From the IMG/VR virus record IMGVR_UViG_3300043570_000747, positions 1-47,608 of that record: a stretch of 47,608 nt of DNA; one strand, given 5' to 3'. The position numbers and the translations under genes are program-made. Position 1 is the stretch's first letter. Each line of letters begins with the position of its first letter. The DNA comes from a virus. Below, piece after piece: positions 21,110 to 42,699 of the stretch. The notes below the pieces were generated by a model. It saw only the letters and a program-made list of their open reading frames with translations, did no database searches and was not told the DNA's origin.

Positions 21110-21266
21110 TCAACTAGCGAAACAGGGACAGTTTAGAGAGTATCTAGTCCAATGTCGTAAGTAAGAACTCTCTCCCTTCGGGGAAGTCCCAAAAGGCGAA
21201 ATGGGGGGACTATAAAATACCCAAAGTAGCATACCTGAGCAAGTATGGTTAAAAGGCTCAACACAA
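21110..21266 (+). other. structured 3' region / intergenic
   Basis: No gene on the plus strand. Several self-complementary parts: AGAGAGT with ACTCTCT, and the pseudoknot element at 21230-21261. A minus-strand frame (21133-21381) overlaps the next real gene and is not supported. Confidence 0.4.
21230..21261 (+). promoter_or_regulatory. CTGAG-loop pseudoknot element, copy 1
   Basis: CATAC-CTGAGCAA-GTATG forms a 5-bp stem with an 8-nt loop. Loop TGAGC (21236-21240) can pair with GCTCA (21256-21260) after an A-rich linker, giving an H-type pseudoknot. Same architecture as 21747-21775 and 42183-42211, but this copy precedes a promoter, not a start codon. Confidence 0.5.
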
Positions 21267-21288
21267 TGTCAGACCCCTCTGATATACT
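21267..21288 (+). promoter_or_regulatory. TGTCAG-type phage promoter 7
   Basis: TGTCAG (21267-21272), 10 nt ending TGA, TATACT (21283-21288). The only promoter of the set in an intergenic position without a Crp/GlxR-like site upstream. Confidence 0.75.
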
Positions 21289-21319
21289 AATCAACCAACC
21301 AACCAACGAAAGGTAATAT

Positions 21320-21736
21320 ATGTCAAGACAAATCACAGTAAAGGTAGCAACAACCAAAGTAATCAAGGCACTAGAAGGCACACTCGCTAAACTAGAGAAA
21401 GATTACACATCACAATCAGCAAATGAAGCAAAGTATAACAAGGCGGTAGAAGCGTGGCGCAAGGAAATTGGTAAGTGGGCTATTGCTAACTTCTCAAAGG
21501 CTGAAAACCTACGCACAAACTATCGCAACTGGAACAACACTCTCAATGTTGATTTTGACATCATCACAAAAGAAGGTGGGTTTCCTACTGAACCTGAAAA
21601 GGATTTTGAGGTTATCCATCAGCACACTTATCGTGAGATGAAAGAGGACATCACAAATGCCCTAACAATTCTCAAGATGACAGATGAGGAAACAGTAAAT
21701 GCTTCCACAATGAAGCAGATTGCTAAGTATCTCTAA
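21320..21736 (+). CDS. hypothetical helical protein
   Basis: 138 residues, Lys/Glu-rich and mostly helical (TTKVIKALEGTLAKLEKDYTSQSANEAKYNKAVEAWRKEIGKWAIANF). A coiled-coil segment is likely at residues 15-60. Ribosome site CGAAAGG. Recurrent in actinophages by pattern, but no function known to me. Confidence 0.65.
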   Translation: MSRQITVKVATTKVIKALEGTLAKLEKDYTSQSANEAKYNKAVEAWRKEIGKWAIANFSKAENLRTNYRNWNNTLNVDFDIITKEGGFPTEPEKDFEVIHQHTYREMKEDITNALTILKMTDEETVNASTMKQIAKYL

Positions 21737-21746
21737 ATAAATACAA

Positions 21747-21787
21747 CGACCTGAGTATGTCGCCAAACTGCTCACACCTTCGGGTGT
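21747..21787 (+). promoter_or_regulatory. CTGAG-loop pseudoknot element, copy 2, in a 5' leader
   Basis: CGAC-CTGAGTAT-GTCG hairpin (21747-21762). Loop TGAG (21752-21755) is complementary to CTCA (21771-21774). A UUCG-capped hairpin ACACC-TTCG-GGTGT follows (21774-21787, sharing one base). Lies 23-63 nt before ATG 21810, so it could act on translation of that gene. Confidence 0.6.
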
Positions 21788-21809: not shown

Positions 21810-22037
21810 ATGGCAAATCGTTTTAGAATAGAAATCTATGACGCAAACAAAGCAAATGATGTAACTATTTATTCAGATCAAGGTGTTGATAGAGAATACC
21901 TAAATGAATTAGTTTTTTCTAATTTGCGTAAGTTTCACGGAAGAGTAAATGCTTACGTGTATGACAATGTAAAAAAGAAAAAGGTTACAGCAATGTTCCT
22001 TGATGAAAGTATAACTAATCAGTTTCAGTTAAGATAG
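21810..22037 (+). CDS. hypothetical protein, possible target of RNA element
   Basis: 75 residues: MANRFRIEIYDANKANDVTIYSDQGVDREYLNELVFSNLRKFHGRVNAYVYD...; alpha/beta, basic. The leader holds the pseudoknot element and AACAAAGG. No family recognised; it might bind its own leader, but that is only a hypothesis. Confidence 0.6.
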   Translation: MANRFRIEIYDANKANDVTIYSDQGVDREYLNELVFSNLRKFHGRVNAYVYDNVKKKKVTAMFLDESITNQFQLR

Positions 22038-22275: not shown

Positions 22276-23283
22276 ATGGCTCATAATCTAGAAATGGAAA
22301 ACGGCGAAGTTGCTTTTGCTCTTCGTGGTGCTCCTGCTTGGCATAATCTTGCCAACCGCATCTTTACAAAAGATGAGGAAGTTACAACTAGTCTAATGCT
22401 TGAAGAGGCAAAATTGGCTAATTGGAATGTTCGCTTGTCTCCACTAACTGAACACATTTCAGAATCTTGGAATGATGTATCAGATGCATCTCTTGTCATT
22501 CGTGACAACCCATTCAACAAGGGCATAGATGTTCTTGCAACTGTTGGAAAGCGTTACAAGCCTGTGCAGAATGAAGAGTTATTTGCATTTGCTGATGCTA
22601 TTCACGATGCCAATGCTGATTGCCGTTGGGAATCCGCTGGCTCATTGAAGAAGGGTAAAGTTGTATTTGGAACTGTAGATATTCCACGCACAATGGTTCT
22701 TGACCCACAAGGTGCTAACGATGAGACAAAACTTTATCTTATCGTATGGACATCACACGATGGTTCTGTTGCTGTTCAAGCAGCCGTTACACCTGTTCGT
22801 GTTGTTTGCCAAAACACATTGAATCTTGCAATGCGTAATGCAAAGCAATCTTTCAAGATTCGTCACACACAATCTGTTGAAGGTCGTATTCAGGTTGCTC
22901 GTGAGACTCTTGGTCTTGCTCTTGGTTATTTCGATGAGTTTGAAATTGAAGCAAAAGCGCTTTACTCTCAAGCAATCACCGATGCTGAATTTTCAAAGTT
23001 GATTCAGACTATTTATCCAAAGCCAGATAAAGATGCAGCAAAAGTTGCTCTAACTAAGTGGGAGAATAAGGTTGTATTGCTTGATGACCTTTATCATAAC
23101 TCACCAACTAACGCTACAATCAAGGGAACAAAGTGGGGTGCGTTCAATGCACTAACTGAGCGCCTTGATTATTTCCGTTCAGGTCGTGGCAATTCTGAAA
23201 CACTAATGGCTGGTGCATCAGGCTTTGACCCAATTCTTACCGCCGAGAAAAATAAAATTCTCAAGTTGGTAAAATCATTCTAA
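22276..23283 (+). CDS. DUF932 / TIGR03299-like phage-plasmid protein
   Basis: 335 residues. PAWHNLANRIFTKDEEVTTSLMLEEAKLANWNVRLSPL near the N-terminus, YKPVQNEELFAFADAI in the middle, then PVRVVCQNTLNLAMRNAKQSFKIRHTQSVEGRI. These follow the phage/plasmid-like TIGR03299 family (DUF932). Function unknown; common in actinophages and plasmids. It is the largest gene of the plus-strand early region, with its own promoter and a strong terminator. Confidence 0.8.
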   Translation: MAHNLEMENGEVAFALRGAPAWHNLANRIFTKDEEVTTSLMLEEAKLANWNVRLSPLTEHISESWNDVSDASLVIRDNPFNKGIDVLATVGKRYKPVQNEELFAFADAIHDANADCRWESAGSLKKGKVVFGTVDIPRTMVLDPQGANDETKLYLIVWTSHDGSVAVQAAVTPVRVVCQNTLNLAMRNAKQSFKIRHTQSVEGRIQVARETLGLALGYFDEFEIEAKALYSQAITDAEFSKLIQTIYPKPDKDAAKVALTKWENKVVLLDDLYHNSPTNATIKGTKWGAFNALTERLDYFRSGRGNSETLMAGASGFDPILTAEKNKILKLVKSF

Positions 23284-23297
23284 CAAAATGATTTGCG

Positions 23298-23327
23298 ACG
23301 GGGGAGAATAAAATCTCCCCCGTTTTC
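23298..23327 (+). terminator. intrinsic terminator
   Basis: ACGGGGGAGA (23298-23307) pairs perfectly with TCTCCCCCGT (23314-23323), loop of 6, then TTTTC. Confidence 0.85.
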
Positions 23328-41974: not shown

Positions 41975-42163
41975 CTACTTAGGATTATCTGTTTTATAAA
42001 ATCCATTACCTTTAAATTGTATACCGAATGGTGTAAATTGTCTTGTCATTTGTGCATTACATTCTTCACAAATGTATCCTGGATCATTTTCAGAAATTGA
42101 TCTTGTTACAGAAAGTGTTGCGTGGGCATCATCTTCTAGGCACTTATATTCATATACTGGCAT
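41975..42163 (-). CDS. FmdB-like zinc-ribbon protein
   Basis: 62 residues: MPVYEYKCLEDDAHATLSVTRSISENDPGYICEECNAQMTRQF. P-x-Y-x-Y-x-C start, then C-x-x-C, matches the FmdB/putative regulatory zinc-ribbon family, with the first Cys pair reduced to one Cys. Its leader carries a highly structured RNA including the CTGAG pseudoknot element. Confidence 0.75.
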   Translation of the reverse strand: MPVYEYKCLEDDAHATLSVTRSISENDPGYICEECNAQMTRQFTPFGIQFKGNGFYKTDNPK

Positions 42164-42262
42164 TACTTGTCCTTTAATGTTGGTGAGCAGTTTGGGGACA
42201 TACTCAGGTCCATCCTGCGGGTAGCAGCCCGCTATCTGCGACTCCCCGATGAAGGGGTGCAG
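42164..42262 (-). promoter_or_regulatory. structured 5' leader, riboswitch-like
   Basis: Minus strand, after TATAAT (42268-42273). Helix ATCTGC/GCAGAT enclosing CCCC-TTCATC-GGGG; then GCGGG-CTGCTA-CCCGC; then pseudoknot GGAC-CTGAGTAT-GTCC (42196-42211) with loop TGAG pairing CTCA (42184-42187). AAAGGA and ATG 42163 follow within 20 nt. Confidence 0.6.
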
Positions 42263-42276
42263 ATTTCTATTATACC

Positions 42277-42699
42277 TTATTTGATTTTAATTGTTTTTGG
42301 TTTCTTTTCTTCTGGAACAATACGTTCCAAAGAAATACGCAACATGCCGTCTTTTACTTCGGCACCAGTAACTTCAATAAATTCTGCTAATGCAAATTCA
42401 CGAGTAAACTTGCGAGCTGCAATTCCTTTATGAATTACTTTTTCTCCAGATACTTCTGTTTTAATTTCTCCTTTAACTACAAGAGTTTGTTCATTTACAG
42501 AAATGTCTAAATCAGTTCTTGAAAATCCTGCCACTGCTATTTCAATGCAAAATGAGTCTTCATCTTCCATTTGAATTACATTATATGGTGGATAGGTTGA
42601 TTGTGCTGAGTGATTTTGGATTCTAGATAGTCTTTCAAAATCTCTATTGAATCCGATAAAAAATGGATCATTAAAAAAATCCAAAGTTGTTGTTACCAT
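42277..42699 (-). CDS. Hsp20 small heat-shock protein
   Basis: 140 residues. Alpha-crystallin domain: YNVIQMEDEDSFCIEIAVAGFSRTDLDISVNEQTLVVKGEIK...RKFTREFALAEFIEVTGAEVKDGMLRISLERIVPEEKKPKTIKI, ending in the family's I-x-I motif (IKIK). ATP-independent holdase in the cytoplasm; Hsp20 genes are known in cyanophages and T4-like phages, where they may help virion assembly. Leader has an AT-rich stem TTAGTA/TACTAA; no ribosome site inside it, so no thermosensor can be claimed. Confidence 0.93.
   Translation of the reverse strand: MVTTTLDFFNDPFFIGFNRDFERLSRIQNHSAQSTYPPYNVIQMEDEDSFCIEIAVAGFSRTDLDISVNEQTLVVKGEIKTEVSGEKVIHKGIAARKFTREFALAEFIEVTGAEVKDGMLRISLERIVPEEKKPKTIKIK

Follow-up and report, generated by a model that had tools for sequence, protein, structure and literature searches.

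The window analysed here, a 47.6 kb virus record (IMGVR_UViG_3300043570_000747, positions 1-47,608), carries three copies of an RNA element of 28-30 nt that, on comparative sequence evidence, folds into a compact H-type pseudoknot in which both helices covary and the loop bases are fixed. The element belongs to a family that is apparently undescribed so far and is very widespread in phages and other mobile DNA; we did not find it in the literature searched, which covered few subscription titles. Because it usually stands behind stop codons and is replaced by hairpins at orthologous sites, we favour, at somewhat less than an even chance, a role as a compact structural barrier, which most likely serves to stabilise the 3' ends of cistrons.

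The window contains phage genes, including terminase, ribonucleotide reductase, Hsp20 and seven tRNAs. The original prediction described two 29 nt elements, and both are present, at 21747-21775 on the plus strand (CGACCTGAGTATGTCGCCAAACTGCTCAC, copy A) and at 42211-42183 on the minus strand (GGACCTGAGTATGTCCCCAAACTGCTCAC, copy B), with the outer stem pair, which changes from C-G to G-C, as their sole difference. With up to three mismatches allowed, the pattern of copies A and B had two matches in the window and none in 100 dinucleotide shuffles. The third, diverged copy (copy C, CATAC-C-TGAGC-AA-GTATG-GTTAAAAG-GCTCA, 21230-21260) is also real, and is a variant carrying AAAAG rather than AAACT ahead of GCTCA; a strict pattern finds exactly these three. 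The proposed pairing of the loop TGAG with CTCA holds, but stem 2 has five pairs (TGAGY with GCTCA) rather than four, the fifth being U-G or C-G. Loop 1 of the window copies is a single C. The copies are laid out as follows.

21747..21774, plus strand: copy A, by pattern match and family covariation
21747-21750/21759-21762, plus strand: stem 1 of copy A (CGAC/GTCG)
21752-21756/21770-21774, plus strand: stem 2 of copy A (TGAGT/GCTCA)
21751, 21757-21758 and 21763-21769, plus strand: loops 1 (C), 2 and 3 (CCAAACT) of copy A
42184..42211, minus strand: copy B, by pattern match
42211-42208/42199-42196, minus strand: stem 1 of copy B (GGAC/GTCC), with loop 1 C at 42207
42206-42202/42188-42184, minus strand: stem 2 of copy B (TGAGT/GCTCA)
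21230..21260, plus strand: copy C, by pattern match, with an identical sequence in viral locus L002
21230-21234/21243-21247, plus strand: stem 1 of copy C (CATAC/GTATG), with loop 1 C at 21235
21236-21240/21256-21260, plus strand: stem 2 of copy C

Around these copies, and at one related site, lie the following features.

21320..21736, plus strand: 138 aa ORF with no PHROG match, its stop 10 nt ahead of copy A
21810..22037, plus strand: 75 aa ORF, its start 35 nt past copy A
22276-23283: DUF932 gene, upstream of the next feature
23297..23324, plus strand: GC-rich hairpin CGGGGGAGA...TCTCCCCCG, between the DUF932 gene and tRNA-Asp
23332: tRNA-Asp, downstream of that hairpin
42277..42699, minus strand: Hsp20 gene (phrog_432), upstream of copy B
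42217..42274, minus strand: leader preceding copy B, read from sequence
41975..42163, minus strand: FmdB-like gene (weak family match), its start codon 20 nt downstream of copy B

Two copies had been described as lying before start codons. A start codon in fact follows all three, but copy A also begins 10 nt past a stop codon, and what looks like a promoter separates copy C from its downstream gene. At copy B, on the minus strand, the Hsp20 stop is directly followed by a TATAAT box (42274-42269), then by hairpins at 42263-42235 and 42232-42217, the pseudoknot and the FmdB-like gene. This leader (42274-42217 in the window) recurs as a module in relatives (L003, L016, L113, L726): its hairpins, two or three in number, are conserved in sequence (CTGCACCCC...GGGGAGTCGCAG, CGGGTCGCTACCCG), and it lies between Hsp20 and downstream genes that differ between related phages (FmdB-like, nuclease-like). 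Separately, TGTCAG(A/T)CCC with TATA(A/C)T about 8 nt later recurs behind the pseudoknot at 21250-21290 of the window and in L001, L106 and L443, and this block is possibly a phage promoter.

An exact scan with CTGAGTATNNNNCCAAACTGCTCA found 19 further viral contigs, among which stem 1 varies pairwise (CGAC/GTCG, GGAC/GTCC, CAAC/GTTG, CATC/GATG). A relaxed scan of viral contigs gave at least 120 stretches, with up to five copies per 14 kb, and 84,980 species genomes of bacteria and archaea yielded at least 118, stem 1 having at least three pairs in 110 of the matches listed. In 4.5 Mb of fetched viral loci, strict copies (4+5 pairs) number 420, against 3 in the shuffled control, which speaks for specificity and not for prevalence since the loci were chosen for carrying a copy. 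Nor are the copies independent, because phages share ancestry. Gene calls throughout are simple ORF calls.

The first scans had fixed stem 2, so it was assessed separately. Among scan matches with stem 1 intact, the altered stem 2 TARR/YYTA was paired in 88 and broken in 2, and TGGR/YCCA was paired in 80 and broken in 1. A complete control scan with an A-C mismatch at one stem 2 position gave 52 matches with stem 1 intact, so some mismatch is tolerated there. Another 33 copies were met incidentally, outside every scan pattern, and the second stem is fully paired in 26 of them. For the 31 distinct incidental copies, not selected for stem 2, 97.1% of cells are paired, versus 68.4% in shuffles, and the covariation score is 0.799, versus 0.253 in shuffles, a value reached by none of 500; slid registers do not score above 0.18. 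Pairs changed on both sides occur at four of the four positions of stem 1 and four of the five of stem 2, which is what an H-type pseudoknot should give; the U-A pair of stem 2 is fixed by the search pattern, and the covariation test covers the other pairs. The proposal of a new covarying pseudoknot motif is thus strongly supported, with many covarying copies found elsewhere.

When all geometries were scanned behind stop codons, loops of 1, 2 and 7 nt stood out (233 observed versus 15.5 expected), with C as loop 1 in 212 of these 233 copies. The consensus is N3(C/G)-C-UNNN(C/U)-AN-S1'-NN-AAA(CU/AG)-(G/A)NNNA, where S1' is the second strand of stem 1. Over hundreds of copies from many phyla, the C of loop 1, the A of loop 2, the AAA of loop 3 and the U-A closing pair are invariant or nearly so, an invariance that the search patterns partly impose. 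The pseudoknot is succeeded by a G-poor, U-rich single strand: the 9 nt behind it lack G in 58% of copies versus 13% of control positions, and at least six of them are T in 14% versus 0.7%. Such constant loop bases would suit a recognition site for one conserved partner, whether a protein or a small molecule bound by a riboswitch-like aptamer. We regard this as unlikely, since no consistent pathway lies downstream, hairpins can stand in for the pseudoknot, no Rfam riboswitch or other family matches, and the conserved bases may simply make the tightest small pseudoknot.

Rfam 15, searched with the whole window and with short stretches at E values up to 10, returned only tRNAs and chance matches, although Infernal models do not score pseudoknots and very short families might escape. 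STAXI (RF01728) also consists of small pseudoknots, found close to SSB and antirestriction genes of mobile DNA (PMC2864571), and some copies of the present family likewise follow an SSB or a likely ArdA gene. We rejected STAXI as an identity: RF01728 has no match in the window, and STAXI, of which we read an E. coli copy, is built of tandem repeats with UUCG hairpins and has another fold and sequence, whereas the present element is a single copy and was not found in Enterobacterales. The STAXI family search had no match in 59 Enterobacterales or in control genomes, an outcome that is uninformative. Pseudoknot PK1 of tmRNA has the same architecture but is part of tmRNA; that of Nautiliaceae fits our search pattern in three matches only (L150, L210, L235), probably by coincidence between similar folds. 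Covariation of stem 2 led us to drop the reading of CTGCTCA as a boxA-like antitermination signal.

The position of the element is best defined relative to the gene upstream. About three-quarters of viral copies have a stop codon within 40 nt upstream, and for 246 of 453 an ORF of 70 or more codons stops no more than 30 nt away. The spacer from stop to stem 1 is most often 5 nt (60 copies), with 31 copies at 6 nt, three at 4 nt and none shorter; shorter ORFs show the same mode, and many of the remaining copies fit them. With short ORFs included and 40 nt allowed, 118 of the 453 (26%) have no such stop, and many of these, copy B included, follow a hairpin or belong to a leader driven by a promoter. 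The upstream gene is codirectional in 367 of the 395 viral cases in which one was called, and it comes mainly from few families (DUF932 in 17-18 of 120, Hsp20 in 12 of 120, and single SSB, RIIB and major head genes). We rejected a recoding pseudoknot, for read-through or frameshifting: an in-frame extension of at least 20 codons past the stop occurs in 31% of copies versus a background of 38%, and this lack of enrichment argues against read-through. In six loci (L604, L515, L127, L107, L273, L497), pyrimidine-rich long-loop hairpins (TCCTTTCT, TTTCTTCGTCGTT) occur just before the pseudoknot, abutting it or within a few nucleotides.

Counted from the P site, 5 nt past the stop codon corresponds to about +12, where mRNA enters the ribosome. 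A stem 1 beginning there might act as a translation insulator, plugging the message just in front of the ribosome at termination and either helping release or recycling or preventing sliding and reinitiation. The chance of this is small in our judgement, because any structure staying folded beside a translated gene would show the same minimum and because no ribosome terminates next to copies that lie in leaders or follow hairpins.

What lies downstream is far more varied. A tRNA, of many isotypes, begins 2-13 nt behind 25 copies and at 14-80 nt behind none; -10-like boxes occur just behind the pseudoknot in 60 versus 22 of 453; and relatives differ in whether the promoter is ahead of the pseudoknot or behind it. 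The element had been likened, as a translational operator, to the pseudoknot before T4 gene 32; on this reading, taken broadly, a phage protein would bind it and so control the gene downstream, at translation or otherwise. The T4/RB69 gene 32 operator is also an H-type pseudoknot of about 28 nt in phage mRNA followed by an unstructured stretch, which in T4 is single-stranded and G-poor (PMC535899) as it is here. Some copies also lie in leaders, a start codon follows every window copy, and the 40 nt that follow the pseudoknot are enriched in AGGAG, which resembles a Shine-Dalgarno sequence, as is expected where genes start there. Against this, the family is usually tied to the upstream stop, with what is, three copies aside, a 5 nt minimum, whereas its spacing to the start codon is only loosely kept. 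The 25 copies before tRNAs have no start codon, others precede promoters or have no codirectional gene behind them, and the downstream genes are diverse and mutually unrelated. Neither is the family specific to SSB, and it has no clear UUAAA repeats (12.5% behind copies versus 9.2%, barely an enrichment). As a general function, an operator therefore appears improbable; for single copies such as that at 42211-42184, it is possible.

A transcription signal, that is, an unusual terminator, a pause or an antitermination element, could account for the T-rich 9 nt behind some copies and for the DUF932 relatives, in which the pseudoknot alternates with hairpins followed by TTTTCATTT. We consider it quite unlikely. 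Most copies lack a U-tract and so lack the stable structure plus U-tract of an intrinsic terminator; the hairpins that replace the pseudoknot at other sites mostly lack one too; and copies occur within operons, 19-40 nt ahead of the next start. Classical terminators are depleted in the 97 nt behind the element (2.5% of copies versus 6.4% of controls).

A comparison of orthologous sites bears most directly on function. At the DUF932, Hsp20 and 138 aa ORF sites, the pseudoknot is present in 93 of 108. A GC-rich hairpin occurs at 10 of the 15 sites without it, but at only 3 of the 93 with it and at 15.6% of control stops; the replacing hairpins mostly have no U-tract, and so most are not terminators. 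Behind the 138 aa ORF, the pseudoknot follows the stop in 22 of 26 orthologues among the fetched loci and a GC-rich hairpin in the remaining 4. The window itself exemplifies the swap, with the hairpin at 23297-23324 in the gap between DUF932 and tRNA-Asp, where most relatives hold the pseudoknot. Among loci fetched by protein alone, DUF932 gives 39 pseudoknots and 3 hairpins, and the test pooling DUF932 and Hsp20 gives p = 0.005, a modest result with few independent events. Of 15 Hsp20 regions scored as lacking the pseudoknot, five have it further down, several proved on reading to hold one with altered loop lengths, and five have another long structured RNA in its place. That RNA, of about 90-140 nt (GTCCCCACA...GGATGGATTAGTTACCC...TGTGGGGC), stands directly behind Hsp20 and behind a TATAAT-like box (L731, L748, L755, L760, L764); the L755 example has no Rfam match.

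Phages and other mobile elements set the pseudoknot at cistron boundaries, typically 5 nt past the stop, the closest position that a terminating ribosome does not cover. Under the barrier model, after termination or downstream cleavage, it would halt 3'-to-5' exoribonucleases and so stabilise the upstream message. Candidates for the cleavage are RNase P at an adjacent tRNA, whose cut, with the tRNA 2-13 nt away, would make the pseudoknot the 3' terminus of the upstream mRNA, and an endonuclease in the G-poor tail. A GC-rich hairpin could substitute for the pseudoknot. Intercistronic 3'-stabilising hairpins of the REP type are likewise stable structures that immediately follow a stop codon inside operons, but there the structure is a long hairpin and here a pseudoknot with conserved loop bases. 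Viral exoribonuclease-resistant RNAs and the engineered 3' pseudoknots tevopreQ1 and mpknot are also small, and block exonucleases; they have no sequence relation to the present element, for which blocking is only predicted. Small pseudoknots at the 3' ends of pegRNAs limit decay by 3' exonuclease (PMC11946880).

Position behind stops and replaceability by hairpins are as a 3' end stabiliser would have them, but about one-quarter of copies (in leaders and behind hairpins, including 42211-42184) are placed otherwise, and the barrier model explains these less well. In leaders, the pseudoknot may similarly shield an RNA end; the model is at its weakest here, and a function at 3' ends does not by itself account for the leaders. 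The stems are short, at 4 and 5 bp, and a generic barrier would not require bases as conserved as those of the loops and stem 2, a hint that some partner recognises them.

The family is spread over phages of Firmicutes, Actinobacteria and Cyanobacteria, crAss-like viruses (one copy with three stem 1 pairs), prophages, and genes of ICEs and plasmids. Isolates with strict copies include Arthrobacter phage Molivia, where the order is SSB, pseudoknot, tRNA-Gly, Mycobacterium phage Labelle and Nostoc phage NMeng1; in Firmicutes prophages, the pseudoknot lies between minor head and scaffold genes. A strict copy was not found in 80alpha, and the Phietavirus records 3MRA and B166 have only a degenerate form with stem 2 broken. 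Copies in bacterial genomes follow genes that we take, from their sequence, to be ArdA-, DUF3768- and DUF2958-like. In genome scans, named for the taxonomy of the genome on which each search centred, the pattern matched in 8 of 248 Lactobacillales, 3 of 148 Clostridia, 1 of 118 Bacteroidota and 1 of 143 Gammaproteobacteria genomes (the last with unpaired stems), and in 0 of 248 Enterobacterales, an absence that is not strict because one loop geometry was scanned; a reversed-pattern control gave 0. RNase J was considered as the target because Enterobacterales lack the element, and was set aside, as placement does not single it out. At 11 loci in bacterial genomes (L144, L152, L157, L158, L167, L170, L199, L203, L205, L234, L259), a tiny conserved ORF with a good ribosome binding site (approximately M-K-R-[FY]-x-[IV]-P-R-x-A-H-C-x-E-G-C-x(2-4)-stop) has a stop that overlaps the pseudoknot, often as UGA within CCTGAG, and an apparent intrinsic terminator often comes next.

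A mini-pseudoknot common to phages, ICEs and plasmids across most bacterial phyla might meet one conserved host machine, such as an exoribonuclease or the ribosome, as a bacterial counterpart of the viral exonuclease-resistant RNAs, having either spread horizontally or been reinvented as an optimal small fold. We hold this broader idea to be less likely than not. If confirmed, the element, at 28 nt, with strong covariation and no Rfam family, would be among the most frequent structured elements in phage messages. Because it keeps a set place after stop codons and is exchanged with hairpins, a mechanism is directly testable. Phage annotation would gain a marker of cistron ends, and a very short RNA would become available to synthetic biology as a candidate stabiliser.
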